Positions 17,701 through 36,216 of a stretch of 36,216 bases of DNA are shown here, in pieces (the first letter of the stretch is position 1; each line of letters begins with the position of its first letter). A program made the translations under genes and the position numbers. The notes beneath the pieces were generated by a model that did not search any database, had not been told where the DNA came from, and saw only the letters and a program-made list of their open reading frames with translations. This DNA comes from Bacillota bacterium. Its GTDB lineage: Bacteria > Bacillota > Bacilli > Alicyclobacillales > SLC66. The stretch spans positions 1 to 36,216 of the forward strand of contig JAJZEE010000031.1 of NCBI GenBank assembly GCA_021805735.1, read 5' to 3'.

Positions 17701-17788
17701 ATCAGCTGGCGTAAGCAAGAGTTATTCTCAATTTAACCGCATAGGATAAGACTGTATGAGGCTTTGATATGAATATTATATTTATATA

Positions 17789-17817
17789 TTGACAAATAGA
17801 ACAAACTGTTATATACC
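17789..17817 (+). promoter_or_regulatory. Promoter of the mannan operon
   Basis: A perfect TTGACA (17789-17794) is followed after 17 bases by TATACC (17812-17817). The long AT-rich stretch between the two divergent promoters probably holds the regulator's operators, though I could not define a convincing palindrome. The leader to the first permease is about 120 bases. Confidence 0.7.
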
Positions 17818-17944
17818 TATCTTGCGACAGTGGATACGGACCAATACCCTATTTGATAGGATCTTGGGATTTTTTCGATATGTAAGGGCTTACTGGCCAG
17901 GCGTAGAGACTAAATGAAGAAGTATATCGGAGGAGGCGAAGTGA

Positions 17945-18868: not shown

Positions 18869-18883
18869 AGGGGGTGCGTTACG

Positions 18884-19798: not shown

Positions 19799-19909
19799 AG
19801 CGCTCTGGAGCAGAAGGGAGGGGATGGCCTGTCGGATACATGAAACATACGCGGTGAGAACTTTTTTGCAATACAGCCGTCATCTACCATACAGAGGGGG
19901 AAATGAGTC

Positions 19910-21229: not shown

Positions 21230-21243
21230 GCCGTACGAAGTGT

Positions 21244-21275
21244 GGGGTTGGTGAGAGTTTCCAGGCGCCAACCCC
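21244..21275 (+). terminator. Hairpin after the solute-binding protein gene
   Basis: GGGGTTGG (21244-21251) pairs perfectly with CCAACCCC (21268-21275). There is no T-tract, so it is more likely an mRNA 3'-end stabiliser or partial terminator than a full intrinsic terminator. The 179-base gap to the GH76 gene also holds a T-run with TATAAT (21365-21370) lacking a good -35 box, which could be a weak internal promoter. Confidence 0.5.
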
Positions 21276-21408
21276 AACTCACTTGATCCCATATAGTTAT
21301 CGACAGAACTGAGCGCCGTGACGGCTTAGAACGGTATGGCCACAGTGCAGAGAGCGTGTTTTTTTATAATTATACATGACCGTTATCCGATAGAAGGGGG
21401 TTCAATGA

Positions 21409-22515
21409 GTGAGCGCGTCGCGGTGGAACCGTTTATTCGGAGGAATGTTGGTCGGTCTGTCCGTGAGTTCGTTAACCATGTCTTACACCCTGCCGGCTTA
21501 CGCTGCCACCAGTAAAGCGCAGGCGATGGCGCAAGCCAACCTCGTCATGCAAAGTTTTGTGACTCATTATTGGCAGGCGGACAACAGCCTATTCTATAAC
21601 AATTACCCGTTTCCGCAAACGGGCAATAACTACTGGTGGGAAGCCAATGCGATTGACGCGTTGGCCGAAGGGGCGCAACTCCACCTGAAGATCGACTGCG
21701 CAACGTATATTCAGGCCATCTATCAGCGCATCGCCGCAGATGGCAGCGCGATAACGGCGTACTTCGATGACGAGAATTGGATGGGTCTCGGATTGTTGCA
21801 CGCCTATCGGGCGACGGGGCAAAAGGAGTATTTGGCGTCGGCTGAGCAGTTGTATCAAGACATCTACACACACGGTTGGCAGAAGCAAGGAGGCATTATT
21901 TGGAACCGCATTGGGTCGACGTACAGAAACACCCCGGCCAATGCTCCTGCCGCTCTCTTGGGAGCAGAACTATTTGCTGTCACTCACAACAGAAAGGATC
22001 TGGCGATTGCGCAGAAGATCTATGGCTGGGAGTGGACCCACCTGGTGGCACGTAATGGAACGGTCTTTGACGGTTTGCAGGGCAGGACCCTGAACAAATC
22101 GGCGTACACGTACAACTATGGAACTGTGATTGGCGCTTCCCTGCAGCTATGGAGAGACACGCATGATGCGGTGTATTTGCATCATGCAGAGCTTGTCGCC
22201 AACCGCTCCATCGCCGTGTTCACGAAACCGCATTCGCTTGTTCTGACCCCTACCGGACAAGGAGACGGCGGGTTGTTTAAGGGAATTTACGTACGCTACC
22301 TCGCGTGGATGCCCGCCTATTTTCCCAAGGATCCGATCTATCGCCAACTGCTTCTTGCCAATGCACGGGCGGCGTGGTCGCACGATCGCACAAGTCAGGG
22401 GCTGTTTGACAGCAACTGGGCGCGCAAAAGTTCCCCTCCTCCGGGCAGCGTCATCGGTCTGAGTACAGAACTCAGCGCTGTTTTCCTGTTCAATCAGATT
22501 CCTGGTCTTTATTAG
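21409..22515 (+). CDS. Secreted GH76 endo-alpha-1,6-mannanase
   Basis: 368 residues. A signal peptide ends near AYA-A (about residue 33). The GH76 catalytic Asp pair lies in YFDDENWMGLGLL (D120, D121). Other family segments are GGIIWNR, NTPANAPAALLGAELF, YTYNYGTVIGASLQLW and DGGLFKGIYVRYLAWM. GH76 enzymes cut the alpha-1,6-mannan backbone of yeast and fungal cell walls outside the cell. GTG 21409 follows GAAGGGGG; the ATG four bases earlier is in another frame. It is expected to feed the adjacent ABC importer. Confidence 0.93.
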   Translation: MSASRWNRLFGGMLVGLSVSSLTMSYTLPAYAATSKAQAMAQANLVMQSFVTHYWQADNSLFYNNYPFPQTGNNYWWEANAIDALAEGAQLHLKIDCATYIQAIYQRIAADGSAITAYFDDENWMGLGLLHAYRATGQKEYLASAEQLYQDIYTHGWQKQGGIIWNRIGSTYRNTPANAPAALLGAELFAVTHNRKDLAIAQKIYGWEWTHLVARNGTVFDGLQGRTLNKSAYTYNYGTVIGASLQLWRDTHDAVYLHHAELVANRSIAVFTKPHSLVLTPTGQGDGGLFKGIYVRYLAWMPAYFPKDPIYRQLLLANARAAWSHDRTSQGLFDSNWARKSSPPPGSVIGLSTELSAVFLFNQIPGLY

Positions 22516-22571
22516 AGCGAGTCACCATCTATTCGGTCTGTTGCGTGTTACTTCCAAGCGAGGTGTCAACC

Positions 22572-25500
22572 ATGTTGAACGTGCGCGATTTGGACATAAA
22601 AATTGAACGCCGATTGGAAGAACTGTGGAAGCGGTCTATTGTACGCACGATGCCGATCGAGGACTGGACGCTGTCGGCAGGAACGGCGCCGGAACGCGCG
22701 CGGGGCGCTGAAGCTGATGCGAAGAAGGCCGGACCAGAGCAGCAGGGGCCGTTGCGTCCTCTGGATCGCTACTGGGATCCGAGAGTTTACAGTGCGCCTC
22801 CAAGTGTGCTCTATTTCACGACTCGACTGCGCATCCCCCGCGCAAATGAAGGGGAAACGGTGTTTCTGGCGTTGGACTTTCAACACGAAGGGCTGGTTTT
22901 GTGGGACGGAGCGGCGTTGCAGGGGATTGACCGCAATCACGTGGAGGTTGCCGTGTTGGAAGCGGACGCCGGCGAGCATGATGTGCGCGTGGAGGTAGAC
23001 CTTTATACCGGGTGGGCCGACCGAAACAATCCATTTGAAATCAAGGTGAGCGAGTGGCGTCTTGTGTCTCCTGTTGCGCGCGCCGCCTATTATGACATGT
23101 GGACTGTCTTGCACGGCAGTCGCTTGAATTCGTTGCGGACGGAAGAACGCGTCGCCGTTTTGCGTGTGCTTGACGCAGCGTGCAACCGCGTGCAATGGAA
23201 CGCGCATGACCGCGAGGCGTTTATTGAAAGCGTCGCGTCGGTGCAGGGAAATTTCATGGACGACGTCAGAGCGCTTGGCATCCCTGCGCGCGGCGAGGTG
23301 TTCGCCATTGGCCACTCGCACATTGACGTGGCCTGGCTGTGGACTCTGGAGCAAACGCGTCGCAAGGCGCAGCGTACGTATGCGACCGTCATGCATCTGA
23401 TGAGGCAATACCCGCATTACCAATTCGCGCAATCAACGCCGCAACTCTACGCGTTCTTGCAAGAGGAACGTCCGGAGTTGTTTGAGCGGGTGAAGGCCGA
23501 GGTCAAGAACGGGAGATTCCAGCCTGTCGGGCCGATGTGGGTCGAGAGCGATTGCAATCTGACAAGCGGCGAATCGTTGGTCAGGCAAATCGTATACGGG
23601 CGACGGTGGCTGCGCAAAGAGTTGGGTGTAGATTCGCATGTCGCGTGGTTGCCCGACGTATTCGGGTTTAGTTACTCTTTGCCGCAAATCTTGAAACTGG
23701 GAGGCCTCAACTACTTCTATACGATCAAGCTCAGCTGGAACGATACGAATCAGTTTCCCTACGACCTGTTCTGGTGGGAGGGCATAGATGGAACGCGGGT
23801 TCTCGCCCACATGCTGTCTTCGCCCGGCAGCGGCTACAACGGCTCCATGAAGGTTGGCGAGGCCTACCAGTTTTGGGATAGTTACAAGGCGAAGCCTGAT
23901 CACGGTGAGATTCTGTATCCGTTTGGATTTGGCGACGGGGGCGGCGGACCGACTGCGGAGATGTTGGAAGTGCAGTTCCGGTTGCTCCATGTTCCGGGCG
24001 CGCCGCAGGTGCGTACGGGCAATGTGGAGGAATTTTTCACGACTCTTCCCGCCGACGTCAAGCTTCCTGTTTGGAACGGTGACTTGTACCTTGAATTGCA
24101 TCGTGGCACATACACGTCGCAAGGCCGGGTCAAATGGCTGCACCGGCGGGCAGAAGGCGCATTGCACAGCGCGGAAGCGCTGATGGTCGCCACGGGCAAT
24201 GAAACCATCGCGCGACGACTGTACGACAGTTGGATCACACTCCTGCGCAATGAGTTCCATGATATTTTGCCTGGCTCCGGCGTGCGCGGGGTGTACGAAG
24301 ACGCCGAACGGGAACTGCAAAGTGTCATTGACGCGGCAGAACACGTATCGCTGGAAGCGCTGCAAGCGCTTCATGAGGTTCCGGGCGCCGCCGCAATGGA
24401 AAGTAAGCGGTCTTGGTGTGTCTGGCAACCCAGCCCACTGGCCCGTCGGGACTTGCTGCAGTTGAAGGGTGTTCATTTTTCGCGCGGGGCCAAAGTGGTC
24501 TCAATTGCAGGGGAGACGCTTACCACGCAGGACGCGGCAGAGGGCGCGCTAGTCCAGTTGGGCGATAGGAATCCTTATACGCTTTCAACCATCTATGAGA
24601 TTGTGAACGGCGCCCTGGCGGACGCGGACGAACACGCGCAAGGGAACGGCGTGCAGGTGTCGCTTACCAGCCTGGAAAATGCCTTCCTGCGCGCGGAGTG
24701 GAGTGCACGCGGCGTATTGCGCCGCATCTACGATAAGGAAGTCCAGCGCGAAATCCTTACGGACGCGTCCAATCGCTTGATGGTGTATCTCGACAAGCCG
24801 CATGACTGGGATGCGTGGGAGATTGACGCGGATTACGGGAGTGTCGCCAGGCAACTGCTGCCCGCCCGCGTGTCTGTGCTGGAGCAGGGGCCCCTCCGGG
24901 CGGCGCTGGAATTTGTGTATGAGTATGGCGCGTCACGCATTACGCAGACGGTTCGGTTGGAAAGCGATTCACGCTTGCTTGAATTTGCCACGGACATTGA
25001 GTGGCGCGAACACTCGACCATGCTGCGCGCCGATTTTACTGTTGGGGTTCACGCCAGGTTCGCGACTTACGATATCGCGTTTGGCAATGCCGAACGCCCC
25101 ACTCACTGCAATACGTCATGGGAGCAGGCGGCGTTTGAAGTTCCTGCGCACAAATGGGCGGATCTCTCGGAGGATGATTACGGGGTAAGCCTGGTCAACA
25201 ATGGCCGCTATGGACACAGCGTGAGAGGCTCCCGGATGGGATTGTCTCTGCTTAAGTCCGCTGTCTGGCCGGATCCCGAAGCCGATCAAGGCGCGCATCA
25301 TGTTGAATACGGGTTGTACTGTCACAAAGGAGACTGGCGACGGGGCAATACCATGGCGGTCGCATATGCGCTGAATCATCCGTATCTGGTCGCACGGTTG
25401 CCGGATGGGGCTGGGGTGGATCTGCCGAGCGTCGTTGAAACCGACAGAGAGAATATCGTCATCGAGACGATCAAGTGGGCTGAGGATGACGCGCGCTCGA

Positions 25501-25700
25501 TCATCATCCGCTTTTACGAGGCTTACAATCGTCAGACCAGCGTGACGCTGTCCTTCTCCAGGGTGGTGCAAAGAGTGCTTAGAACGGACCTGATGGAAGA
25601 AGAGCAGATCGTCTCGGAAGTGCTGTGCGATCATCCGACAACCAAGGTGTTGATTTCGGTGCGACCGTACGAACTGTGCACCTTGAAGATCGTTCTGTAA
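22572..25700 (+). CDS. GH38 alpha-mannosidase
   Basis: About 1042 residues, without a signal peptide, so cytoplasmic. Family marks are HSHIDVAWLWTLEQTRRKAQRT (zinc ligands His and Asp, near residue 250), AWLPDVFGFSYSLPQIL (catalytic Asp near 361), and EFHDILPGSGV. The C-terminal half is the usual beta-sandwich region. GH38 enzymes hydrolyse alpha-mannosides, often alpha-1,2, -1,3 or -1,6 side chains. ATG 22572 has AGGTG six bases upstream; a GTG at 22545 would give nine extra residues without a ribosome site. It likely trims imported mannooligosaccharides together with GH125. Confidence 0.95.
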   Translation: MLNVRDLDIKIERRLEELWKRSIVRTMPIEDWTLSAGTAPERARGAEADAKKAGPEQQGPLRPLDRYWDPRVYSAPPSVLYFTTRLRIPRANEGETVFLALDFQHEGLVLWDGAALQGIDRNHVEVAVLEADAGEHDVRVEVDLYTGWADRNNPFEIKVSEWRLVSPVARAAYYDMWTVLHGSRLNSLRTEERVAVLRVLDAACNRVQWNAHDREAFIESVASVQGNFMDDVRALGIPARGEVFAIGHSHIDVAWLWTLEQTRRKAQRTYATVMHLMRQYPHYQFAQSTPQLYAFLQEERPELFERVKAEVKNGRFQPVGPMWVESDCNLTSGESLVRQIVYGRRWLRKELGVDSHVAWLPDVFGFSYSLPQILKLGGLNYFYTIKLSWNDTNQFPYDLFWWEGIDGTRVLAHMLSSPGSGYNGSMKVGEAYQFWDSYKAKPDHGEILYPFGFGDGGGGPTAEMLEVQFRLLHVPGAPQVRTGNVEEFFTTLPADVKLPVWNGDLYLELHRGTYTSQGRVKWLHRRAEGALHSAEALMVATGNETIARRLYDSWITLLRNEFHDILPGSGVRGVYEDAERELQSVIDAAEHVSLEALQALHEVPGAAAMESKRSWCVWQPSPLARRDLLQLKGVHFSRGAKVVSIAGETLTTQDAAEGALVQLGDRNPYTLSTIYEIVNGALADADEHAQGNGVQVSLTSLENAFLRAEWSARGVLRRIYDKEVQREILTDASNRLMVYLDKPHDWDAWEIDADYGSVARQLLPARVSVLEQGPLRAALEFVYEYGASRITQTVRLESDSRLLEFATDIEWREHSTMLRADFTVGVHARFATYDIAFGNAERPTHCNTSWEQAAFEVPAHKWADLSEDDYGVSLVNNGRYGHSVRGSRMGLSLLKSAVWPDPEADQGAHHVEYGLYCHKGDWRRGNTMAVAYALNHPYLVARLPDGAGVDLPSVVETDRENIVIETIKWAEDDARSIIIRFYEAYNRQTSVTLSFSRVVQRVLRTDLMEEEQIVSEVLCDHPTTKVLISVRPYELCTLKIVL

Positions 25701-25754
25701 CAGCAGGAAAGAGGCACATCAAGTTGCAAAACACTATCGACAGGGGGAATTTTT

Positions 25755-28700
25755 GTGATTCGATCACGCCACAAACGGATGAGCGCCGCCGCGGTCATTT
25801 CTCTTGCGCTCGCTTTGCCGGCATGGACGCTCGGCGCAGCGGCCAAGCAAGTTGATCTGCGCGCGCCCCAAGAACAGGGGTTTGGGATTCAGGCACAGCC
25901 AATACAACTGGTTGGAGCGGATCCGACCTCCTATCTGACGCACGATCAGGCAGCCTTAGCCTATATCCTGGCAAAGATTCTTCCCACCGGCGAACTCCTC
26001 AGCAGTTCAGGGCAAATGGCGAGCACGCAGACGACGGCTTATACCGCGGTCGCTCTGGCGCTGGCAGGGGAGAGCGGACCAGCAGCCAGCCTCGCGCAAT
26101 GGCTTGTATCCAAACAAAATGCGGACGGCGGTTGGGGAGCCTCGTTGGCAGCCGCCGCAGGATCGTCCACCTCCGATCTGCGCGATTCGGCCCTGGCCTT
26201 GTGGGCGATCGCTGAAGTTGGGCATGTAGGCGCGTCGACGCAGAGCGCCAGTCACTTTTCTCAGATTGAGCTTGGGGTCAAGTACCTGTTCAGCCTACAG
26301 TCGACGTCCAATGCGACGTTTTCTGATGCAGGCAGCACCCTGGCGCCTGCAGAGAGCAACGCGATAGCGATACGGGCGCTGCAAGTCTGCGCATACGCCG
26401 CACAGCAACTCGGACATTCGAACGAAGCGCAACAGTGGTTGCAAGCGTCCTCGCAGGCGGCGCAAGCGCTTAACGCAGATACTGGAATCGCCCGCTCCGT
26501 TACCACGGACTTCCTCGCCAGCGCGCTGTGGGGGCTTGCCCCTTCTACGCAAGCGGCGCGGCGGCAAGTGGGCGCCACGAATGATCTCGGGTTCGCCTAT
26601 CTCGGATTTGGGGCCAAATCCGGCCCTGGTTACTATTCGGGCATGGATTGGATTGATGGAGTCAGTACGTTCAATTATGCGATCGCCGCCGCGCGCGCCG
26701 GATTGCAGAATCTGGCGATCGCGCAGTACAACTATGGTCTGACGATGCAGAATTCGGACGGGGGCTTTGGCACATCGGCTCATCCGCCGATGGGGCCTGA
26801 AACGGGTTCGTTTGCCAAGGGACCAAACGCTTCAAGCGTCCTGGTGACGGCGCATTATCTTCTTGCCACACACGCATTGCTTGCGCATGGGATGCTTGGC
26901 TTTGGCTGGAACTCTGCAAACGTCACGATAAACGGCAATGCGAGCACAATCGCGGCGGCGCCGCCGGCCCTGGATCCCCGGATCAAGATGCGGCATGGGC
27001 CGCGGATCGCCGTGATCATCGGCAGCCCCTCTGTCCAGGTGAACGCCAGTCAACCCGCGACTTCCGGCGCCTCCGAGCAGAACCTGCAAATGAATGTCGC
27101 TTATGAACTGACCCAAATGGGTTATCGCGTGACTTTATTCTGGTACAAACCCAATCAGGCGCAGCAGTTTTATCCGTTGAACGCATTTTGGGCTTCGCTT
27201 GGCAGCTTTCAGGATGTCATCGCCGCAAACAACTCTTTTGCCTATAGCAATGGTTACAAAGCGAGTTTCACGGCGCATCAGCAACAGTTTCTCAGTTGGT
27301 TGCAGCAGGGCGGACGTTTTATCGACGCGGGCGACAGCGGGGCAGTTCCCTTGCCGTCCCCCTTGACCGTTCAAGTTTCCGGCACGCCAACGCCGATCTC
27401 TGCGATCCGTTTATCCGCGGGTTTGGCGATGGAGAATAATCCAGGCGGCGTTGGACAGGGAGTCTCGCAGAATTGGCCTAATGCGGCCAATGCTTACTAC
27501 GGTGTTGGCTCCGCTTACAAGGTCTTTGCCTATGGACAAACGGGAAGCGACCAGTGGCAACCCGTCATGGTCGGCGCGCACTACGGATTGGGACGTGTCC
27601 TGCTTTCCACTGTGGCGGTGGGTTCGACCGCTCAGGACCATGCGCCGCTATTATCCGCGATGCTGGGCTGGGCCAATCGCGGCGTACAAATTCCCGAGTC
27701 TGTTCCAGTCTCCTATACGGGGGCGGCCCAACAACTGTATCAGGCGATGCAGACCGTCTATGCGGTTTCCGGAACCAATCTGTACCGGGAGCACAACATG
27801 CCGGCCCAAGGGGATCGGTCGTATTCCTATCTGTGGCCGTTTGGTCAGGCGTTTGCAGGCATTGCCGCCAGCGCGTCAGCGCTTCGTCCGATAACGGACT
27901 ACCCGACTTTGCTCAACAATCTCGCCGCAGGGTTGCAAATGTATAACGATCCCACCTCGAATCCACCTGGGTACGATTCCTATGTGTTGAGCCAGGGCGG
28001 CGGGTTACAGTATTTTGACGACAATGGATGGATTGCCCTCGATTTGATGCGCAGCTATGCAAACACAAATAATCCCCAGTTTCTGCGCCTGGCCGAGAGT
28101 GACTTCACATTTTTGCAGAGCGGCTGGAGCAAGTCAAAAATCCCGCCTGGCGGGGAATATTTTAACGAAAAGCGAATCGGCCGCACGCAAACAGCGACCG
28201 GTTCAGTGATAGACGCGGCGTTGCGTTTGTACCTGGCGACGCGCAATCCGCTTTATCTAACGTTTGCCAAACAGGCGTACAACTGGGATCGCACTTATAT
28301 CAAAGGGGTGAACGGCCTCTACAACGACGGCGTCACTGCGACGGGGCAGGCAAACGGTACGCCGTATACGTACGATACAGGGGTCATCCTGCAGGCCGAT
28401 GTTCTCTTGTACCGAGCTACGAATGAGGCGAAGTATCTGACGCGCGCAGAACAGCTGGCGACGGAAGGACTGTCTCTGTACACGGATCCGCTGACCGGTC
28501 AGATGATCAACAATGCAGGACAGTCGAACGCGCCGTTTAACGAGATTTTCTTGCGTGGGTTGCTCATGCTCTACGGGGAGGATCAGAACCCCGCGTATCT
28601 GAGCTACATCGAACGGCAAGCGAATACCGCCTATCGCTACGACAGGTATGCCAATGGCATTTACGGAATCAACTGGAGTGGCGTGAATGATCCGAGTCAG

Positions 28701-28775
28701 CCCGTGGATCTTTTAACGCAAGGGGGAACTCTGAGGCTGTTTGGCATGCTTGCGAATCTCCAAAAAACACCTTGA
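25755..28775 (+). CDS. Secreted multidomain protein with C-terminal GH76-like domain
   Basis: 1006 residues. A signal peptide ends near residue 30. Residues about 60-390 form an alpha-toroid-like domain with two prenyltransferase/squalene-cyclase type motifs, QNADGGWG (121-128) and QNSDGGFG (about 333-340). Residues about 410-640 (RIAVIIGSPSV; YELTQMGYRVTLFWYKP; FLSWLQQGGRFIDAGDSG) look like a Rossmann or ThuA/GATase-like fold. Residues about 650-1003 resemble GH76, including YFDDNGWIALDLM (Asp pair 755-756) and GSVIDAALRLYLATRNPLY. A mannan-active secreted enzyme is likely, but the roles of the first two domains are unknown. GTG 25755 follows AGGGGG by seven bases. Confidence 0.8.
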   Translation: MIRSRHKRMSAAAVISLALALPAWTLGAAAKQVDLRAPQEQGFGIQAQPIQLVGADPTSYLTHDQAALAYILAKILPTGELLSSSGQMASTQTTAYTAVALALAGESGPAASLAQWLVSKQNADGGWGASLAAAAGSSTSDLRDSALALWAIAEVGHVGASTQSASHFSQIELGVKYLFSLQSTSNATFSDAGSTLAPAESNAIAIRALQVCAYAAQQLGHSNEAQQWLQASSQAAQALNADTGIARSVTTDFLASALWGLAPSTQAARRQVGATNDLGFAYLGFGAKSGPGYYSGMDWIDGVSTFNYAIAAARAGLQNLAIAQYNYGLTMQNSDGGFGTSAHPPMGPETGSFAKGPNASSVLVTAHYLLATHALLAHGMLGFGWNSANVTINGNASTIAAAPPALDPRIKMRHGPRIAVIIGSPSVQVNASQPATSGASEQNLQMNVAYELTQMGYRVTLFWYKPNQAQQFYPLNAFWASLGSFQDVIAANNSFAYSNGYKASFTAHQQQFLSWLQQGGRFIDAGDSGAVPLPSPLTVQVSGTPTPISAIRLSAGLAMENNPGGVGQGVSQNWPNAANAYYGVGSAYKVFAYGQTGSDQWQPVMVGAHYGLGRVLLSTVAVGSTAQDHAPLLSAMLGWANRGVQIPESVPVSYTGAAQQLYQAMQTVYAVSGTNLYREHNMPAQGDRSYSYLWPFGQAFAGIAASASALRPITDYPTLLNNLAAGLQMYNDPTSNPPGYDSYVLSQGGGLQYFDDNGWIALDLMRSYANTNNPQFLRLAESDFTFLQSGWSKSKIPPGGEYFNEKRIGRTQTATGSVIDAALRLYLATRNPLYLTFAKQAYNWDRTYIKGVNGLYNDGVTATGQANGTPYTYDTGVILQADVLLYRATNEAKYLTRAEQLATEGLSLYTDPLTGQMINNAGQSNAPFNEIFLRGLLMLYGEDQNPAYLSYIERQANTAYRYDRYANGIYGINWSGVNDPSQPVDLLTQGGTLRLFGMLANLQKTP

Positions 28776-28894
28776 ATGCGTGAATGCTTGCAGGCATGAG
28801 ACGGAGGATCAGGGGCGGTTTGATCGGTGGCCAGATCAGCAATAGTCGATAGTGAAGCAGCGATCCACAGGGAGCACGTCAAAGGAGGATGGCG

Positions 28895-30214
28895 ATGACC
28901 GCGATCAAGTCCACTGCTGTTACATCTGTGATCAAGGATGTTTTTGGCAGGATTCAGGATGATAAGCTACGCCGTGTTGCGACCAACTGTTTGCTCAGCA
29001 CTCTTGATACCACGATTCAGTGGCCAGACGGTAATGATCCGTTTGTGATCACGGGGGATATCCCTGCCATGTGGCTGCGAGACTCGTCGTGCCAGTTGGA
29101 ACCGTACATTCGTTTTACGGGCGAAGACACGGTATTGAAGGAGTTGATCATGGGAGTTATTCGCCGGCAGGTGTTTTACATTAACGAGGATCCTTACGCG
29201 AATGCGTTCAATCCTGAACCAAATAACGTGCAGGGCTTCCCCCACGACTGCACCGATAAGAATCCGTGGGTGTACGAAAGAAAATTTGAGTTGGATTCTC
29301 TTTGTCACCCCATTCGTCTGTGGTGGCTGTTTTGGCAGACGACGCATGATCGGAGAATCTTTTCCCCGGATGTGTTAAGTTCTATTTACAGAATCATAGA
29401 CGTGTTTGAAACGGAGCAGGATCATGACCGATCCTCGTATCTCTTTGAACGCCCGGACGCGCCATTGACAGATACGTTGACGTTTGGGGGAAAGGGCTCT
29501 CCCGTTGCGGCTACAGGTCTGATATGGTCGGGATTCAGACCGAGTGATGACGCGTGCACTTACCATTATCTGATTCCCGCTCAGATGTTCGCGGTGGTCA
29601 GCCTGCACATGTTGCGTGAACTTGTGAAAATGGGATTTTCCGACGACATTCTTGTCAGACGGATCACCGATTTGATAACACTCATCCAAGGGGCCGTTGA
29701 TCGCTTTGCAACGGTTCCCCATGCACTCTATGGAGATATCTGGGCATATGAAGTGAACGGTCTGGGGCACTACAATTTGATGGATGACGCAAATGTGCCC
29801 AGTTTATTGTCGCTTCCTTTCCTAGGCTACTGTTCGTTGGACTCTCCTCAATACAAACGGACCCGGCGGTTTGTCTTAAGCAAGCACAATCCATATTTTG
29901 TTGAGAGCGAACTGGGCTCTGGCGTGGGAAGTCCGCACACGCCTGCCGGCTACTTCTGGCCTATTGCCGTAATGATGCAGGCCCTGACGAGTGACTCTGA
30001 AACGGAGAAACTGTCCTGTGTCGACATGCTTTTACGAACGGACGCGGACACAGGATTCATGCATGAGAGTATTGATGCAAAGAATCCGCAGCGCTACACC
30101 CGTTCGTGGTTCGCGTGGGCGAATTCTCTGTTTGCGGAACTGATATTGCGTCTAATGGATGTCAAATCCATTCAGGCTTCTCCGCTGCTGAGTGAAACGG
30201 AGGCAAGATTTTGA
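28895..30214 (+). CDS. GH125 exo-alpha-1,6-mannosidase
   Basis: About 439 residues, cytoplasmic. Family segments are FVITGDIPAMWLRDSSCQ, YERKFELDSLCHPIRLWW, WSGFRPSDDACTYHY (Asp pair near 218-219, including the expected acid), MDDANVPSLLSLPFLGY and FMHESIDAKNPQRYTRSWFAWANSLFAEL (Glu near 391, the expected base). Characterised GH125 enzymes remove terminal alpha-1,6-mannose. ATG 28895 lies six bases after AAAGGAGG; ATG 28889 abuts the ribosome site. With GH38 it would complete cytoplasmic breakdown of mannooligosaccharides. Confidence 0.95.
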   Translation: MTAIKSTAVTSVIKDVFGRIQDDKLRRVATNCLLSTLDTTIQWPDGNDPFVITGDIPAMWLRDSSCQLEPYIRFTGEDTVLKELIMGVIRRQVFYINEDPYANAFNPEPNNVQGFPHDCTDKNPWVYERKFELDSLCHPIRLWWLFWQTTHDRRIFSPDVLSSIYRIIDVFETEQDHDRSSYLFERPDAPLTDTLTFGGKGSPVAATGLIWSGFRPSDDACTYHYLIPAQMFAVVSLHMLRELVKMGFSDDILVRRITDLITLIQGAVDRFATVPHALYGDIWAYEVNGLGHYNLMDDANVPSLLSLPFLGYCSLDSPQYKRTRRFVLSKHNPYFVESELGSGVGSPHTPAGYFWPIAVMMQALTSDSETEKLSCVDMLLRTDADTGFMHESIDAKNPQRYTRSWFAWANSLFAELILRLMDVKSIQASPLLSETEARF

Positions 30215-30233
30215 TCATTATGGGGGTAAAGCG

Positions 30234-31604
30234 ATGCGCGTAATCTACATTGATATCGATAGCTTGCGGCCAGATCATCTCGGATGCTACGGGTATGCTC
30301 GTCCGACGACACCGAATATCGATCGGTTGGCTCAACAGGGAATACGATTTACGCAGTGTTTTTCGTCTGACAGTCCGTGCATGCCTTCACGGGCGGCGAC
30401 GATCAGTGGAACATTCGGCATCAAAAACGGCGTCGTTACGCACGGCGAACGCGCCTCAGAACTTCAGGGGCAACAGAGCACACTGCCTTACGTGCTGCGA
30501 CAGCACCGGATTCCGGCAGTGGCAATCAGCAGTTTCGGTCGACACCCGTCCCCCTGGTTCTATGTCGGTTGGAACGAATTTATCGATCCGATCGATCGGC
30601 CGGAACTAAGCTTCCAACAAATCGCGGGCGAAGAAGTCGTTGATCGGGCGATTCGCTGGTTGGACGAAAATCGCGCTCTGACCGATTTTTACCTGTACGT
30701 GCAACTCTGGGATCCGCATGCAGTCTACGAGGCTCCGCAGTCGTTTGTGGATGCGGCGCGCAACGACAATTATCCGGCGCGCCCCACGCCTGAGGATGTG
30801 GAAACCGATCAGAGGAACATGTTCTGGCATTCGGCGAAAGGGATGGGAATCGCGTCATATGAAGATTGGCAGCGAATGATTGACGAATATGACGGAGAAA
30901 TTCGTTATGTCGACAACCAAATAGGGCGTCTGCTTGCCGCACTGGAGGAGCTTGAACCAGAGGGCGACATGGTAGTCATTTTGTCAGCGGATCACGGGGA
31001 AGAACACGGGGAACATGGATTATACGTGGAACACTGGAGTGTGCATAACGGTACGCAGCACATTCCCCTGATCATTCGCGATTCGCGCAGGCGGGATGCG
31101 GGTACGGTGTTTGATGGATTGGTCTATCAAATGGATATTACGTCCACCGTCTGTCACGCGTTTGCTGTTCCTGCTCCAGCGCGCTGGGATAGCAAATCCC
31201 TGCTTAAACAGCGCGATGGCGTGGAGAGCGTCCGTCCCTATCTGGTTTGCGGGCATGGACTGTATACGGCGCAGCGAACGGTGATAACTACCGAATGGAA
31301 GCTGATCCGCACTTATCACCCCGGGATGTGGGAAATTCCCAAGTTGCAATTGTTCCGCCGCGCGGATATATGGGAGCAGGACAACGTGGCTTCCATTTAC
31401 CCGGAGGAGGCAGATCGACTGGACGGTTTGCTGCGTGCATGGGAAGAGGAACATCGTGTCGGTTGCGATCCCATGATGACGAATGTCGCGCAACGACCGC
31501 ACGGTTCTGTGTATGCCAAAGGGTGGACGGATCAGTTTCTGACAGACGGGGTACACATGCCCGTTGTGCGATCTCAGAGAAAGCGGGAACCGGAGGCGCG
31601 CTGA
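30234..31604 (+). CDS. Cys-type sulfatase
   Basis: About 456 residues with no signal peptide. The sulfatase signature SPCMPSRAATISG gives Cys49 (C-x-P-S-R), normally converted to formylglycine. Metal-binding segments are IDIDSLRPDHLGCYGY and LSADHGEEHGEHGLY. ATG 30234 follows GGGGG and lies 19 bases after the GH125 stop; a GTG at 30192 would overlap GH125. No formylglycine maturase is in the window. The substrate is unknown: sulfated mannan or mannooligosaccharide is inferred from the operon. It is the last gene, converging 34 bases from the LacI repressor with no obvious terminator between. Confidence 0.88.
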   Translation: MRVIYIDIDSLRPDHLGCYGYARPTTPNIDRLAQQGIRFTQCFSSDSPCMPSRAATISGTFGIKNGVVTHGERASELQGQQSTLPYVLRQHRIPAVAISSFGRHPSPWFYVGWNEFIDPIDRPELSFQQIAGEEVVDRAIRWLDENRALTDFYLYVQLWDPHAVYEAPQSFVDAARNDNYPARPTPEDVETDQRNMFWHSAKGMGIASYEDWQRMIDEYDGEIRYVDNQIGRLLAALEELEPEGDMVVILSADHGEEHGEHGLYVEHWSVHNGTQHIPLIIRDSRRRDAGTVFDGLVYQMDITSTVCHAFAVPAPARWDSKSLLKQRDGVESVRPYLVCGHGLYTAQRTVITTEWKLIRTYHPGMWEIPKLQLFRRADIWEQDNVASIYPEEADRLDGLLRAWEEEHRVGCDPMMTNVAQRPHGSVYAKGWTDQFLTDGVHMPVVRSQRKREPEAR

Positions 31605-31638: not shown

Positions 31639-32685
31639 TCATGTCATCTTTCCTGGAGTAGAACCACGAACGATCAGTTCACCTGGGAGTTCCACAATTT
31701 CCGGAGTCAGTCCGTCCTCTTGGCCAATTCTCAAAATGATCCGATTCATCGCAGTGACCCCAATTTGGTAGGTGGGTTGAGCGATTGTCGTAATGCCAGA
31801 TCCTACGAGGAGAGCCCACTCCGGATCGTCGAACCCCAGATAGGAAACACTCTCGGGAACCCTGATGCCAAGTCTCTGAAACGTCCGGGACAATTTTAGC
31901 AAGAGTACGCCGTTGCCCGCCAATATAGCGCGGAGTTGCCCTCGAGAGTCGTACAGAAATTGCAGGAGGCTTTTTTCCAGGTGCGCCTGATTGTGAGCAT
32001 CGACCACATACACATCGGACGTGCTGACGTGTCCATTTTCAGCCAGAATGCGGGAAAATGTCTCCAATCTCTCAGTGCGGGAACTAATCCCTTCGACTGG
32101 TTCCGTAAACAGGGCGACTCGTTCGTACTCCTTCTCCAGAAGATAATGGAGCGCTGTTTCCGTCGCGGACCGGTTATCGGTGCAGACAGTGTCAAAATTG
32201 AGATCCGGAACCTTTCGGTCTACCAGAACGATTGGCGTCTTCTGACCCCCTAAGTCACGCAAGAATGCGTTATTTTGACCCGTCGTGTTGATAATAAGGC
32301 CGTCGATTTTGTGCGATTGAGCTATGAAAATGTAATCGCGCTCTTTTTGCGCGTCGTTGTCTGTATTCCAGACCACGATACTGTATCCGTGAAACTTGGC
32401 CACATCTTCCACACCGCGCATGATTGCCGTCGAAAACGGATTGGAAATATCGGCCAGAATTACACCGATCAGGTTGCTTCTTCCTCTCTTCAATCCACGC
32501 GCAAGTTGGTTCGGGCGATAGTTCAGCGCCGCGATCGTCTCTTCAATTCTCTGCCGGGTAGAGTCAGCCAACGCCTCGTACTGACCCGAAATATAACGGG
32601 AAATGGTGGTCTTCGAGACGCCCGCCGCCTGAGCTACCTGACCTATCGTGACGTACGCCGCATCCTTCTGACGAGAATGGCTCAT
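31639..32685 (-). CDS. LacI-family repressor, KdgR-like
   Basis: About 348 residues. The helix-turn-helix is YVTIGQVAQAAGVSKTTISRYISGQYEALADSTRQRIEETIAALNYRPNQLARGL, followed by a LacI sugar-binding domain (LIGVILADISNPFSTAIMRGVEDVAKFHGYSIVVWNTDND; VSYLGFDDPEWA). Its N-terminus closely resembles that of B. subtilis KdgR (2-keto-3-deoxygluconate regulator), so it may sense a keto sugar. ATG 32685 follows GGGAG by eight bases; a TTG five codons earlier is less likely. Operator-like sites lie in its own leader, at the kinase promoter and before the binding-protein gene. Confidence 0.9.
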   Translation of the reverse strand: MSHSRQKDAAYVTIGQVAQAAGVSKTTISRYISGQYEALADSTRQRIEETIAALNYRPNQLARGLKRGRSNLIGVILADISNPFSTAIMRGVEDVAKFHGYSIVVWNTDNDAQKERDYIFIAQSHKIDGLIINTTGQNNAFLRDLGGQKTPIVLVDRKVPDLNFDTVCTDNRSATETALHYLLEKEYERVALFTEPVEGISSRTERLETFSRILAENGHVSTSDVYVVDAHNQAHLEKSLLQFLYDSRGQLRAILAGNGVLLLKLSRTFQRLGIRVPESVSYLGFDDPEWALLVGSGITTIAQPTYQIGVTAMNRIILRIGQEDGLTPEIVELPGELIVRGSTPGKMT

Positions 32686-32905: not shown

Positions 32906-32919
32906 TGAAACCGATACCA
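32906..32919 (+). promoter_or_regulatory. LacI-type operator at the kinase promoter
   Basis: TGAAACCGATACCA, with the central CG and half-sites typical of LacI-family operators. It overlaps a weak promoter (CTGACC at 32880, 18 bases, TATGAA at 32904) and lies 40 bases before the kinase start. The sequence also fits the CcpA cre consensus at 13 of 14 positions. Confidence 0.7.
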
Positions 32920-32959: not shown

Positions 32960-33919
32960 ATGCCTGCTTTTGATTTGGTGACATTTGGAGAACCGTTAAT
33001 TTCGTTTATCGCCGGAGAGACAGGTCCGCTGCATGGAGTTAGACACTTCCTGCGCAGTTTGGCTGGAGCTGAGATCAACGTCGCGATTGGAATGGTTCGG
33101 CTGGGATACAAAGTCGGATATGTGTCCCGGGTTGGAAACGACGTGTTTGGGGAGATGATTCTCAAGACCCTTCGAAGCGAAGGCATAGATACGAGACTCA
33201 TGGGCATTGACGAACAACGTCCAACGGGGTTTCAGTTAAAGTCCAGAGTCGTCATTGAGGATCCGGAAGTGTTTTATTTCCGTCGCGGTACGGCTGCCAG
33301 TTCGCTCGCGATCGACCCGGCGCACGGCGCGTACTTTTCCAGCGCTCGCCACGCGCATCTTACTGGCATTCCGCTGGCTCTCTCGCAGTCGTCATATGCC
33401 TTCGCCGAAGGGGTGGTAAGCATATGTTCCGGAACTGGAACTACCGTGTCCTTTGACCCTAATCTGCGTCCGAAACTGTGGCCAAATCGGCAGGAAATGA
33501 TTGACACGGTTAACCGCATGGCCTGCAGAGCTGATTGGGTGCTGCCGGGTCTGTCTGAGGGAATTCTGTTGACTGGACATTCCTCTCCTCACGATATTGC
33601 CGAATTCTATCTGGAAAGAGGCGTCAGCGTCGTTGTCGTCAAGTTGGGGCCTGTTGGCGCCTATTTCCGGACAAAGGATGAGGAGGGGTACGCAGACGGA
33701 TTTCCTGTTCAGTCGGTTGATACCGTTGGCGCGGGAGACGGGTTTGCGGTGGGTCTGATAAGCGGGATGTTAGATGGGCTCTCCCTGCGGGACTGCGTGG
33801 AACGGGCCAATGCCGCTGGAGCGATGACCGTTATGTCACAGGAGGATTTTGGACTGACGGGGTTTTCCGAACTAAGCCACTTCATGCAGACAAACAGAAG
33901 AGACGCGACGATGTCGTAG
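32960..33919 (+). CDS. PfkB-family sugar kinase, KDG-kinase-like
   Basis: 319 residues. PfkB marks are GEPLISF at the N-terminus, GAEINVAIGMVRLG (signature 1), and DTVGAGDGFAVGLISG (signature 2, catalytic base Asp260). Its overall shape resembles 2-keto-3-deoxygluconate kinase. It is divergent from a KdgR-like repressor and directly before an HPS-like gene. No KDPG aldolase is present in the window, so the substrate may instead be another keto sugar that feeds the downstream enzymes. ATG 32960 lies after AAGGGAGGGGAGGG. Confidence 0.88.
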   Translation: MPAFDLVTFGEPLISFIAGETGPLHGVRHFLRSLAGAEINVAIGMVRLGYKVGYVSRVGNDVFGEMILKTLRSEGIDTRLMGIDEQRPTGFQLKSRVVIEDPEVFYFRRGTAASSLAIDPAHGAYFSSARHAHLTGIPLALSQSSYAFAEGVVSICSGTGTTVSFDPNLRPKLWPNRQEMIDTVNRMACRADWVLPGLSEGILLTGHSSPHDIAEFYLERGVSVVVVKLGPVGAYFRTKDEEGYADGFPVQSVDTVGAGDGFAVGLISGMLDGLSLRDCVERANAAGAMTVMSQEDFGLTGFSELSHFMQTNRRDATMS

Positions 33920-33966
33920 TCGGTGGAGCTGAGCGGATTTATTGTTCAGCGGATGGGGGGTGGAGA

Positions 33967-34599
33967 ATGAAACTTCAGTTGGCTCTTGATCGAATGACGT
34001 TGGATTCGGCTGTCGCCGTCGCGCGTTCCGTTCGAGACAGCGTGGATTGGGTGGAAGTGGGGACCTCCCTGATTAAGGAATACGGCACAGACAGTGTTCT
34101 CGCGATGCGCAAAGCGCTCCCTGATAAAACGATTGTTGCTGACGTCAAGACCATCGACAGTGTCAGATATGAGTTCGAGCTATGCTTTCGCGCGGGAGCC
34201 GATGTCGTAACCTTGATGGCAGTCGCGCCTTCCACGACTGTCGAGTTGGGCGTCGAGATCGCCTCGGAGTACGGAAAAACAGTGATCCTGGATCTTCTCA
34301 ATTGCCGGATGGAGGAGGTCGGGCGGTACGCCGACAGACAGAATGTGATTTTGTGCTGGCACCGCGGCAAAGATGAACAGGAAACTTCCGGATTGCAGGC
34401 CAGCTCCTTCACGCATCCAGCGTTGAGTTATCCGGGCGCGCGATGGGCGTTTGCAGGGGGATTGTCCCGTGAAAACCTGCATAAGGTCGCCGCTCTCCGT
34501 CCGTATCTTGTGATTGTGGGATCAGCTATAACGTCTGCGCAGGATCCGGCGCAGGCTGCTCGAGAGTTTCACCGGATCGCCCGGGAGGTAGAGACATGA
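33967..34599 (+). CDS. hxlA: 3-hexulose-6-phosphate synthase-like (HPS/KGPDC family)
   Basis: 210 residues, single (beta/alpha)8 domain. Family segments are LQLALDRMTLDSA, VDWVEVGTSLIKEYG, VADVKTIDS (catalytic Asp, Lys, Asp), FRAGADVVTLMAV and AGGLSRENLHKV. Two features are unusual: the usual DAG after the Lys is DS, and the HTG/HAG-x-D-x-Q loop is HRGKDEQ, nearer the HRSRD of keto-gulonate-phosphate decarboxylase. HPS joins formaldehyde with ribulose 5-phosphate, or does the reverse; KGPDC decarboxylates 3-keto-L-gulonate 6-phosphate. The gene overlaps the isomerase start (ATGA), supporting a hexulose phosphate role. The HPS call is more likely than KGPDC. Confidence 0.78.
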   Translation: MKLQLALDRMTLDSAVAVARSVRDSVDWVEVGTSLIKEYGTDSVLAMRKALPDKTIVADVKTIDSVRYEFELCFRAGADVVTLMAVAPSTTVELGVEIASEYGKTVILDLLNCRMEEVGRYADRQNVILCWHRGKDEQETSGLQASSFTHPALSYPGARWAFAGGLSRENLHKVAALRPYLVIVGSAITSAQDPAQAAREFHRIAREVET

Positions 34600-35144
34600 A
34601 TGAGGCGGATGCCATAGTTCGGGAGATAGAAACGGTGCTGCAGGGCCTTCGTGATGAAGAGCTGGATCTGTTCGTCCAAACCATTTTTGCGGCCGGGCGC
34701 ATTTTTATCGTTGGTGAGGGCCGGACGGGCTTTATGATGAAGGCGTTTGCCATGAGACTGATGCATATGGGTATTTGCGTGTTTGTAGCCGGTGAAACTA
34801 TAACGCCTGCCATGATGACAGATGATCTCCTGATCGCGGGATCGGGTTCCGGTTCCACCCAGAGTGTTCTGCATGTTGCCCGTACCGCTGTCGACTTGGG
34901 CGCGCGTCTAATTGCCGTGACTGCGCATCCGGAGTCTCCTTTGGGGGAGTTGGCCGAGGCAGTGGTCCATATCGCCGCGGCTACAAAGGCGCGGTCAGAA
35001 GGTGAGGCAACCAGCGTACAACCTCTGAGCTCTCTTTTCGATCAATGCCTGCATGTTGTGCTGGATGCGACTTGTCTGCGCTTGCTGTCGCTCCTCAATG
35101 AGCAGTCCGAGAATCTGCTGAGAAGGCACACAAACATTGACTGA
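34596..35144 (+). CDS. hxlB: 6-phospho-3-hexuloisomerase
   Basis: 182 residues, one SIS domain. The isomerase pattern is strong: GEGRTGFMMKAFAMRLMHMGICVFVAGETITPAMMTDDLLIAGSGSGSTQSV, then GARLIAVTAHPESPLGELAEAVVHIAAATK and SLFDQCLHVVLDA. PHI interconverts D-arabino-3-hexulose 6-phosphate and fructose 6-phosphate, so the pathway product enters glycolysis. Its ATG overlaps the HPS-like stop. In RuMP methylotrophs and B. subtilis the pair detoxifies formaldehyde; here the sugar kinase, sugar-type repressor and binding protein point to sugar catabolism. Confidence 0.92.
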   Translation: MNEADAIVREIETVLQGLRDEELDLFVQTIFAAGRIFIVGEGRTGFMMKAFAMRLMHMGICVFVAGETITPAMMTDDLLIAGSGSGSTQSVLHVARTAVDLGARLIAVTAHPESPLGELAEAVVHIAAATKARSEGEATSVQPLSSLFDQCLHVVLDATCLRLLSLLNEQSENLLRRHTNID

Positions 35145-35491
35145 GCGCCCGATTCAGCGGATTCATGCGTCGATTCTGAAACCGATACCAGACATGGCGA
35201 TCCTGATCTAGCAAAGACTGCAGCTCTTTCAGAAATTTATGCTTGACACTTGATTTGAAAAGTAGTAGAAAGTGTTTATCAGTACTGAAACCGATACCAT
35301 TGAACAATTGGACAATGCTTGGCGAATTTGCATTCCAGTGCTGATTCCGATTGTTTTCTTGGTTAAATTGAAAACGGTTCCATTTGGGGCAAGTTGCCGG
35401 ATGATGGGAGTGATGCCACGGTAGTGGAACGAAGGAAGAGCGTAGCATTGTATGTTTCAGACAAGATCAATCATGGTTGAGGGGGATATGT
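35145..35491 (+). promoter_or_regulatory. Control region of the sugar-binding protein gene
   Basis: TTGACA (35243-35248), 17 bases, TAGAAA (35266-35271) form a promoter. Copies of the operator TGAAACCGATACCA lie at 35177-35190 (upstream of -35) and 35286-35299 (downstream of -10), 109 bases apart, about ten helical turns. This layout suits repression by a looped or bivalent LacI tetramer. No gene is seen in the stretch. Confidence 0.75.
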
Positions 35492-36216
35492 ATGCGATTG
35501 ACAAAACGGAATCTGGCCCTGGCGGCGGTAGTGAGTTTCACGGCCTTAAGTTCTCTTTCATGGACCTCTGCGGGATTCGCGAAGAGTCATAGTTTCAAAA
35601 CGTCGCCCGCGAATCTGCTGCAATCCATCAAGCGGCAGGTCGCAGCTATGGAGGGACCTGACACGGTCTGGACGGGTCCGACCACCGGCCCGAAAGCTGC
35701 GAAAGGCAAGTTTATCGTGTATCTATCCGGAATGGCGGGGAACAATCTGTCCCGTGACTATGGCATCTTTATGGCGCAAGCGGCCGCGAAGATCGGTTGG
35801 AAGTTCAAAGTGATCAACGCGAGCGGGAGCGCCTCCAGTTGGCTGAATGGATTGAACGAAGCCATTGCCCTTAAGCCAAACGGAATTGCCATGTTTGCAA
35901 ACGCCGCGACATTGCAGGGACCTATCCGCAAGGCTGTCGCGCGCGGCATTGTGTTGATCGGTCTGCACGCCTCTGCGGAGCCGGGGCCGAGACCGACGCG
36001 GCATTTGTTCACCAACATCGAGTCCAGTCCTGCACAGATAGGTCGCGCGGAGGCTGACTATGTCATTGCCAATTCGAATGGCAAAGCCAACGTCGTGGTG
36101 TTGACGCATAACGAATACGCGATTGCCTACACAAAATCCATGGCGACAAAGAACCAACTGACTGCGCTTCCCGGCATCCATGTCAAGGGGTATGTCAATG
36201 TTCCGGCGGCCAACTC
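35492..36216 (+). CDS. Sugar ABC transporter substrate-binding protein (partial)
   Basis: The frame is open to the window end, so only the first 241 residues are seen. A signal peptide (MRLTKRNLALAAVVSFTALSSLSWTSAGFA) precedes a ribose-binding-like fold: GKFIVYLSGMAGNNLSRDYGIFMAQAAAKIGWKFKVINASGSASSWLNGLNEAIALKPNGIAMFAN, then IVLIGLHASAEPGP and NIESSPAQIGRAEADYVI. The fold belongs to the periplasmic binding protein 4 type used by monosaccharide importers. ATG 35492 follows GAGGGGG. It should deliver the sugar that the kinase, HPS-like and PHI proteins process. Permease and ATPase genes probably follow beyond the window. Confidence 0.85.
   Translation, partial: MRLTKRNLALAAVVSFTALSSLSWTSAGFAKSHSFKTSPANLLQSIKRQVAAMEGPDTVWTGPTTGPKAAKGKFIVYLSGMAGNNLSRDYGIFMAQAAAKIGWKFKVINASGSASSWLNGLNEAIALKPNGIAMFANAATLQGPIRKAVARGIVLIGLHASAEPGPRPTRHLFTNIESSPAQIGRAEADYVIANSNGKANVVVLTHNEYAIAYTKSMATKNQLTALPGIHVKGYVNVPAAN

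Follow-up and report, generated by a model that had tools for sequence, protein, structure and literature searches.

The genes described here are related to those of several known systems. In the ptxS-kguEKTD operon of Pseudomonas and Klebsiella, which serves the use of 2-ketogluconate, itself formed when microbes oxidize glucose, a gene for a LacI-type repressor (PtxS) is accompanied by genes for a TIM-barrel protein (KguE), a kinase (KguK), a carrier of the major facilitator superfamily (MFS; KguT) and a reductase (KguD). In the ribulose monophosphate (RuMP) pathway, 3-hexulose-6-phosphate synthase (HPS or HxlA) and 6-phospho-3-hexuloisomerase (PHI or HxlB) act in formaldehyde fixation, whilst UlaD, a 3-keto-L-gulonate-6-phosphate decarboxylase (KGPDC) of the same superfamily as HPS, decarboxylates 3-keto-L-gulonate 6-phosphate. 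At the right end of a stretch of 36,216 nucleotides from a Bacillota bacterium (Alicyclobacillales; GenBank assembly GCA_021805735.1), which constitutes the entire contig JAJZEE010000031.1 (C148) and is called the window here, a kgu-type kinase gene is joined to homologues of the HPS and PHI genes. We propose, with a probability of about 65%, that this is an inducible sugar-acid operon, in which 2-ketogluconate would be imported and phosphorylated at C6, after which the PHI-like protein would shift the keto group from C2 to C3 and the HPS-like protein would release ribulose 5-phosphate by decarboxylation.

The genes for a KguK-like kinase of the PfkB family (predicted 2-ketogluconate 6-kinase; 32960..33919), an HPS-like protein of the HUMPS family (predicted 3-keto-6-phosphogluconate decarboxylase; 33967..34599) and a PHI-like SIS protein (predicted 2-keto/3-keto-6-phosphogluconate isomerase; 34596..35144) all lie on the plus strand, and the PHI start overlaps the HPS-like stop by 4 bases. 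They are followed on the same strand by the gene for an RbsB-type binding protein of an ATP-binding cassette (ABC) importer, presumably for a sugar acid (35492..36216; Peripla_BP_4, PF13407, 41.6 bits), which is truncated by the contig end. A LacI-family repressor gene with a putative PtxS-like role (31639..32685, minus strand, from the first ATG; PF00356 and Peripla_BP domains) is divergent from the operon. This arrangement of four genes under one repressor with shared operators was recognized in the first-pass annotation and is borne out, with three identical operators. In two congeneric genomes (loci L041/L069 and L042/L070), the binding-protein gene is intact, and genes for an ABC ATPase, a permease and an HbpS-like protein come after it. 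The kinase, the HPS-like protein and the PHI-like protein constitute one repressor-linked catabolic unit that probably does not serve formaldehyde metabolism.

The kinase (PF00294, 182.5 bits) has the 2-keto-3-deoxygluconate (KDG)/KDGal kinase model as its best NCBIfam match, at 182.9 bits and far under the cut-off of 400. It is 51.5% identical to an annotated 2-ketogluconate kinase of Klebsiella aerogenes and 53% to the Enterobacter hormaechei protein. Its residues R108 and R170 align with R105 and R167 of the Thermus thermophilus KDG kinase, which we take to be the carboxylate-binding arginines of KDG and ketogluconate kinases, and both are kept in 117/117 kinase copies, a count that includes duplicates and kinases of the KDG type. 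In a kinase tree, 41 of the 42 HPS-linked kinases fall into one branch of 53 rows (SH-aLRT 99) together with two KguD-linked KguK proteins, although kinases of other loci share it (see below); this places the kinase among those of 2-keto acids, a group that includes KguK. In this tree, L010-L012 duplicate L047-L049 and L018 and L023 represent one gene, all labelled 'other'. Kinase identity alone was rejected as proof of 2-ketogluconate as the substrate, since a kinase from an altronate-type locus (L180) is 49% identical and the HPS-linked kinases do not form one group in the tree (9 changes). In the available part of its description, the one characterized KguK, from C. necator, had 2-ketogluconate as its best substrate, with KDG slightly under half as good; it phosphorylated none of 11 neutral sugars, including fructose, psicose, tagatose and ribulose, preferred 2-keto-D-gluconate 60-70-fold over 2-keto-D-gulonate and did not take 2-keto-galactonate (PMC6651773).

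The neighbourhoods of relatives point to a kgu-type context. A species-level genome collection was scanned with an alignment of operon-type HPS proteins, yielding 390 pattern matches, among them 365 relatives, of which the best 80 were read as loci; all 365 show R9 or GTSL, the motifs used in the search patterns, and may include members of the G34 sister group discussed below. Neighbouring genes were sought by tblastn (E <=1e-8, coverage of 50% or more of the reference), with KguE, KguT and KguD references from a Klebsiella operon annotated as PtxS (in two pieces)-KguE-kinase-'tartrate transporter'-KguD and from an Enterobacter operon with the same order and generic names. A PHI gene adjoins the HPS-like gene in 80/80 loci, and a LacI-family gene, 27-99% identical to the reference, is present in 79/80. 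The kinase is found in 73/80 (34-97% identity, median 56%, with the closest among three reference kinases), a KguT-like MFS carrier in 68/80 (62-100%, median 67%; 62-71% to the carrier of Enterobacter or of L044 except in the species of L044 itself, at 100%) and a KguE-like TIM-barrel protein in 65/80 (30-40%). The loci share with ptxS-kguEKTD a LacI-type repressor with an operator that is similar but not identical, the kinase branch, in which kinases of other loci also fall, and, in most relatives, the order KguE-KguK-KguT. In contrast, the KguD reductase was found by tblastn in 0/80 loci, and HPS and PHI genes stand in the operon instead. The gene set, its conservation and the absence of KguD from these loci are direct observations. 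As to KguE, its reaction is, according to the available part of PMC11678583, not established in Pseudomonas either.

The hosts of the 80 loci include Neobacillus, Fictibacillus, Paenibacillus, Heyndrickxia coagulans, Anoxybacillus, Geobacillus, Alicyclobacillus pomorum and Clostridium acidisoli. Four plasmid records of Lactobacillales also combine the kinase with HPS-like and PHI genes, and the three of them examined additionally contain TIM-barrel, carrier, Eda and LacI genes, the carriers being annotated as gluconate:proton symporter, SLC13 permease or hypothetical. In these three records, the PHI partner is named hxlB and the HPS-like gene just 'HUMPS family', and among the plasmid matches listed, those of Leuconostoc are annotated as hxlA. 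Within the order of the window's host, HPS-like matches occur in 17 of 59 genomes. In L043-L046, an MFS carrier gene stands beside the HPS-PHI pair, with the kinase in L043 and L045, LacI in L043 and L044 and the TIM barrel in L043. In L047-L049, the genes are those for LacI, a TIM barrel, another carrier, a hydantoinase-like protein, the kinase, HPS and PHI. Between LacI and the kinase, this variant encodes a hydantoinase A-like protein, a protein of 218-236 amino acids and a 422-amino-acid carrier, and in L047 the latter two are without a Pfam match. In Paenibacillus abyssi (L126), an acetamidase/formamidase gene (8240-9181) directly follows that for PHI.

The active site of the HPS-like protein differs from that of canonical HPS. 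Like HxlA and HxlB, the two proteins belong to the HPS and PHI families, are encoded by adjoining genes and share catalytic residues with them. The PHI-like protein scores 210 bits on TIGR03127, above the cut-off of 160, and has YckF (1m3s) as its nearest solved relative, whereas the HPS-like protein scores 195.1 bits on TIGR03128, just under the cut-off of 200. However, 11 sampled relatives with S34 score 203-239 bits (in a sample drawn from above the cut-off), which shows that the two types cannot be told apart by this threshold. The HPS-like protein keeps, in alignment A1 (20 rows), the shared catalytic residues D8, E30, D59, K61, D64 and H132, and D8, D59, K61, D64 and H132 are present in 80/80 relatives. 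It differs from canonical HPS by having R9, S34 and K135 instead of L9, P34 and Y135, and by forming a clade of its own with kgu-type neighbours. The residue at 135, which corresponds to R139 of UlaD, presumably catalytic there, is Lys in 79/80 and Arg in 1/80 relatives; this position lies outside the search patterns, whilst R9 and S34 (80/80 each) are partly forced by them. In the same column of alignment A1, 13/13 operon-type rows have Lys, UlaD has Arg, and Tyr is found in three hxlA-type HPS of the same order, Leu in an HPS from a Corynebacterium plasmid, Thr in one from a Salmonella plasmid and Ala in a ulaG-linked HUMPS protein. Because the HPS-like gene of L046 (G009), one of the 13 operon-type rows, contains an in-frame stop, only its second part was used. 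The correspondence of K135 with Arg139 was noticed on the window sequence alone, before relatives were aligned. In a published spatial alignment, in the part available, r139 and r144 of KGPDC stand in the column of l137 and y137 of HPS (PMC5980557, Table 1); K135 is thus basic where the two published HPS rows have l/y. The altered signature is observed directly, and the likeness to KGPDC/UlaD extends to the superfamily, the basic residue in the HxxKD/HxxRD motif and the proposed decarboxylation of a beta-keto acid to a pentulose 5-phosphate.

An HPS tree of 104 rows shows three clades: one of the S34 type (99/93), one of the G34 type (98/96) and one that holds 38 of the 41 canonical rows (100/100). 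The remaining canonical rows, L065, L066 and L238, are placed outside it, and long branches lead to UlaD and to the ulaG-linked protein. This tree and the kinase tree cover one third of the 80 loci. Two Salmonella plasmid loci concern the same family. In L067, a HUMPS protein with Ala at the position of UlaD R139 (5001-5639) is encoded beside UlaG and phosphotransferase system (PTS) genes. In L065, an hxlB-hxlA pair (4413-5636), with Thr at 135, lies in a PTS locus beside an SgrR-type regulator and may be another HPS/PHI pair outside formaldehyde metabolism.

A second sample, drawn from a TIGR03128 search of 398 genomes from the class, links residue 135 to gene context. The 59 loci read are non-random: they comprise 25 listed rows (~263 to 203 bits) and 34 hand-picked higher rows from a listing that covers at least 194 bits, and omit four already-examined rows, two rows at 269 bits and L239, which has no HPS gene. 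Among the 35 loci of the P34, or canonical, type, Tyr is found at 135 in 33, with one Leu and one Ala, and PHI in 33; none has a kinase, Eda or KguT-like carrier (at least 50% identity). The S34 type (11 loci) has K135, PHI and LacI in 11/11 each, a KguT-like carrier in 10, a KguK-like kinase in 9 and KguD in none. The 13 loci of the G34 type have Lys (11), Ile (1) or Leu (1) at 135, with Eda-like genes in 8, PHI in 8 and a more distant kinase in 5. Lys or Arg at 135 against the presence of a kinase, Eda or KguT-like gene gives 19/3 vs 2/35 (Fisher p 2e-10, kinship uncorrected). A canonical Tyr-type HPS is also encoded in 6 of the 15 S34-type genomes listed (G008, G101, G107, G241, G320 and G341).

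The G34 proteins (L181-L186, L189, L191-L195 and L197) constitute a sister group with R9, G34 and mostly K135, five of them without PHI. A large-permease gene of one cluster is present in 12/13 of their loci and belongs to DctM (of tripartite ATP-independent periplasmic, or TRAP, transporters) in the member tested. Six loci contain uxuA-like, short-chain dehydrogenase/reductase and Eda-like genes, a uronate-type context, and in 3/13 the ribose-5-phosphate isomerase A gene (rpiA) directly precedes the HUMPS gene, which fits ribulose 5-phosphate as the product. Judging from these features, the sister group probably represents further 3-keto-hexonate-phosphate decarboxylases.

For the substrate, the order of steps and the chemistry, we infer the following from sequence. 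The ABC importer would take up a 2-keto-hexonate, most likely 2-keto-D-gluconate, and the kinase would convert it, with ATP, into 2-keto-6-phosphogluconate. In structure, the latter equals fructose 6-phosphate, the substrate of PHI, carrying a C1 carboxylate, and the two agree in configuration at C3-C5. Thus, the PHI-like protein could shift the keto group via a C2-C3 enediol in the way that PHI interconverts fructose 6-phosphate and 3-hexulose 6-phosphate, which would yield 3-keto-6-phosphogluconate, the intermediate formed oxidatively by 6-phosphogluconate dehydrogenase. The HPS-like protein would then catalyse metal-assisted decarboxylation via an enediolate, with C1 leaving as CO2 rather than formaldehyde and D-ribulose 5-phosphate as the product; K135, and perhaps R9 too, would contact the carboxylate or enediolate. 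The net reaction would equal that of KguD, which uses NAD(P)H, and 6-phosphogluconate dehydrogenase, which makes it, and would need neither enzyme. Similar logic of a 2-keto to 3-keto shift, phosphorylation and decarboxylation is known from the D-erythronate and threonate pathways (OtnI isomerase, OtnK kinase and OtnC decarboxylase), which differ in acting on four-carbon acids, in using other protein families and in isomerizing before phosphorylation. 2-Keto-D-gluconate is our best guess, since it is the substrate of kgu operons, its 6-phosphate matches fructose 6-phosphate at C3-C5 and the loss of C1 leaves D-ribulose 5-phosphate, the compound that HPS pairs with formaldehyde.

The repressor was called KdgR-like in the first-pass annotation; its membership of the LacI family stands, but the KdgR label lacks specificity, as its best curated models are RbsR, CytR and CcpA, each below the cut-off. 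The sequence TGAAACCGATACCA is found exactly at 32906..32919 before the kinase gene and at 35177..35190 and 35286..35299 before the binding-protein gene, and a weaker operator-like site with 3 mismatches, TGAAAACGGTTCCA, lies at 35369..35382 (all plus strand). With up to 3 mismatches, the window contains 8 matches vs 2.78 expected, a number reached in 0/100 shuffles, and the own genome (G000; 170 contigs totalling 3.76 Mb, 96.75% complete) has no exact copy of the 14-mer besides the three in the operon. In the congeners, all three sites recur in L069, and a single exact copy is present in L070. The pattern TGAAACCG[AG]T[AT]CCA is present near LacI or the operon start in 10/16 loci picked for a window-type LacI. 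These operators are directly observed; those of the window (TGAAACCGATACCA) and of relatives (TGAAACCGGTTCCA and similar) are close, but not identical, to the PtxS operator, TGAAACCGGTTTCA, given in the available part of PMC11678583. A genome-wide regulon was considered and rejected: with 1 mismatch to TGAAACCGNTNCCA, the own genome has 24 matches vs 18 for a backwards control, which does not demonstrate a wider regulon.

The importers speak for acids; their type varies between an ABC system in the window, MFS carriers in most Bacillaceae loci and another carrier in L047-L049. The closest curated model of the MFS carrier is the D-galactonate transporter, with scores below the cut-off. Among 25 plasmid records with relatives down to 53.8% identity, nine of which were examined, the kgu copies of Klebsiella and Enterobacter rank at the top (63.6-64.8%), followed by Spirosoma and hexonate loci down to 53.8%, after which identity drops to 36%. 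The four top carrier records also hold the best kinase matches, and two of them were seen to be complete kgu operons that include KguD. One protein related to the binding protein, at 39.6% identity, is encoded in a Deinococcus locus with genes for idonate dehydrogenase, a 2-hydroxyacid dehydrogenase and gluconolactonase. The carriers in relatives are thus of a sugar-acid type, and the contexts of carrier and binding protein favour acids as the substrate class. Carrier likeness alone was rejected as proof of 2-ketogluconate, because the same family occurs in other hexonate loci at similar identity.

Several observations weigh against the proposed pathway. An Eda-like gene (31-44%), superfluous for the scheme, is present in 29/80 loci, and the kinase is out of reach in 7/80 (L127 is cut by the contig end, and L082 has HPS and PHI only). 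The window itself, unlike the kgu operon, has an ABC importer and neither KguE nor KguT, though KguE is found in most relatives. In three Paenibacillus loci (L108, L129 and L136), a PTS gene, sucrose-like as typed on L108 only, and a protein of 546-547 amino acids replace the carrier. The 53-row kinase branch also includes kinases from altronate-type (L180), KDPG-aldolase (L061) and KDG-permease (L058) loci and therefore cannot separate 2-ketogluconate from KDG. The HPS-like protein is 30% identical to UlaD, its partner isomerase is PHI, and the UlaD positions 112, 169 and 192 are HPS-like here (D109, A163 and S186) rather than the E, T and R of UlaD. Two of the 13 sister-group proteins lack a basic residue at 135. 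The carrier family serves other hexonate loci at nearly equal identity (Spirosoma 64.1%, Pantoea hexonate locus 63.4%), and the Spirosoma locus shows no sugar-acid gene in view; Leisingera, the other of the two loci examined for binding-protein relatives, is uninformative on acids. Furthermore, the 80 relatives are akin to one another and hence not independent, and the absence of KguD from their loci is compatible with an unlinked reductase. The 546-547-amino-acid protein is encoded at 3967-5607 in L108, at 4223-5863 in L129 and also in L136, and the L108 copy has no Pfam or NCBIfam match.

Among the alternatives, the same steps might act on another 2-keto-hexonate, such as 2-keto-L-gulonate or a ketoaldonate from idonate or galactonate, and lead to a different pentulose 5-phosphate. 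Relatives of the carrier and the binding protein are found beside genes for gluconate 5-dehydrogenase, idonate 5-dehydrogenase and RspA/enolase-like dehydratases, which, like the variation in importers, fits this explanation. It is nevertheless unlikely, considering that the top four carrier matches share their records with the best kinase matches, albeit with Spirosoma and Pantoea close behind, that the substrate preferences of the C. necator enzyme point the other way, and that HPS chemistry yields D-ribulose 5-phosphate, with three sister-group genes adjoining rpiA. The first-pass annotation proposed instead that a neutral keto-hexose is imported, phosphorylated and converted by PHI to fructose 6-phosphate, with the HPS-like enzyme acting on a related sugar phosphate. 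Of that scheme, the repressor-linked unit, probably not serving formaldehyde, and the order of import, phosphorylation and PHI step survive; its substrate, its product and the role given to HPS are not supported. The scores of the PHI-like protein, above the family cut-off, and of the HPS-like protein, near its own, together with the PTS gene of the Paenibacillus relatives, would suit a neutral sugar. However, the kinase falls among 2-keto-acid kinases, and, in the available part of PMC6651773, the C. necator enzyme is inactive on 11 neutral sugars; the carriers resemble sugar-acid transporters, with TRAP components in the sister group, and a basic residue stands at the position of UlaD R139 in 80/80 relatives. 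This makes a neutral substrate very unlikely, and neither the formation of fructose 6-phosphate by PHI nor an ill-defined accessory function of the HPS-like enzyme is supported.

Two further explanations keep formaldehyde in the scheme. The HPS/PHI pair could turn fructose 6-phosphate into pentose phosphate and formaldehyde, whilst an unlinked KguD-like reductase or an aldolase handles 2-keto-6-phosphogluconate or KDG phosphate. A reverse RuMP route is known from archaea, and the own genome encodes 6-phosphogluconate dehydrogenase, which a reductase encoded elsewhere could feed, a possibility that also counts against our proposal. This is highly improbable in view of the tight linkage of HPS/PHI with kgu-type genes and the need for the cell to handle the released formaldehyde; moreover, no match to the Eda-type aldolase model TIGR01182 was found in the 96.75%-complete own genome, other aldolase families not having been searched. 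The same result, with the same restriction, disfavours a kinase acting solely on KDG with an aldolase elsewhere, which the first-pass annotation had named as the case against its scheme. Alternatively, the operon might fix or detoxify formaldehyde by the RuMP pathway under a sugar repressor, in which case ribulose 5-phosphate or fructose 1,6-bisphosphate would come from the kinase. The homology to HPS/PHI and the intact catalytic residues agree with this, as does a canonical hxlA/hxlB pair ~6 kb from the operon in L079, the hxlA copy of which was excluded from the 80-locus signature count. We consider it most improbable, because Lys replaces Tyr, the constant neighbours among the gene types sought are of the kgu type, a canonical Tyr-type HPS is already present in 6/15 genomes, and ribulose is not a substrate of the C. 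necator KguK as far as described in the available part of PMC6651773.

The remainder of the window contains an alpha-mannan type locus (16471-31604) that encodes a regulator of the GntR type whose sensor domain is LacI-like, an ABC set of two permeases and a binding protein (17945-21229), and glycoside hydrolases (GH) of families GH76, GH38 and GH125, as well as a 1006-amino-acid GH76-domain protein; a sulfatase-fold enzyme gene adjoins that for LacI. The congener L041 keeps three of these genes (those for the sulfatase, GH125 and the 1006-amino-acid protein). A link between this locus and the operon was dropped, since L042 has the operon and no mannan-gene match on its 20-kb stretch. Further upstream, a phage- or plasmid-like block on the minus strand (668-14564) encodes an M78 metallopeptidase, a ResIII/DEAD helicase, a DUF3987 protein, a Prim-Pol primase and a 1003-amino-acid protein that contains a glucosaminidase domain and, on visual inspection, resembles a tape-measure protein. 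In the own genome, no gluconate 2-dehydrogenase subunit 3 was found, and a search for cupin-type phosphoglucose isomerase gave one match, which is without bearing on the operon.

In the literature searched, from which subscription journals were mostly absent, no paper joining 2-ketogluconate with hexulose 6-phosphate and no similar operon was found; the terms ketogluconate and hexulose met in one unrelated review as far as its text was available, and a term search of the available text of a LacI regulon survey found neither. Published growth phenotypes yielded no usable information. With its novelty thus provisional, the pathway would be a variant of the 2-ketogluconate pathway and not a member of the RuMP pathway. 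On balance, we favour the view that it constitutes a hitherto undescribed way of converting 2-ketogluconate to ribulose 5-phosphate that is cofactor-free, with homologues of HPS and PHI in place of KguD and 6-phosphogluconate dehydrogenase for this substrate, and that the wider R9/K135 group comprises 3-keto-hexonate 6-phosphate decarboxylases for several sugar acids. If so, 2-ketogluconate would enter the pentose phosphate pathway at an unexpected point and without Entner-Doudoroff enzymes. Many genes of Bacillota modelled as those of formaldehyde enzymes would have another function, and formaldehyde fixation would be over-predicted from genomes, since 11/11 S34-type proteins in the second sample, which was drawn from above the HPS cut-off, score over it and the partner is named hxlB in the three Lactobacillales records examined. 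The family would also offer a natural test of the interconversion of an aldolase (HPS) and a decarboxylase (UlaD) within one superfamily, with position 135/139 as its marker.

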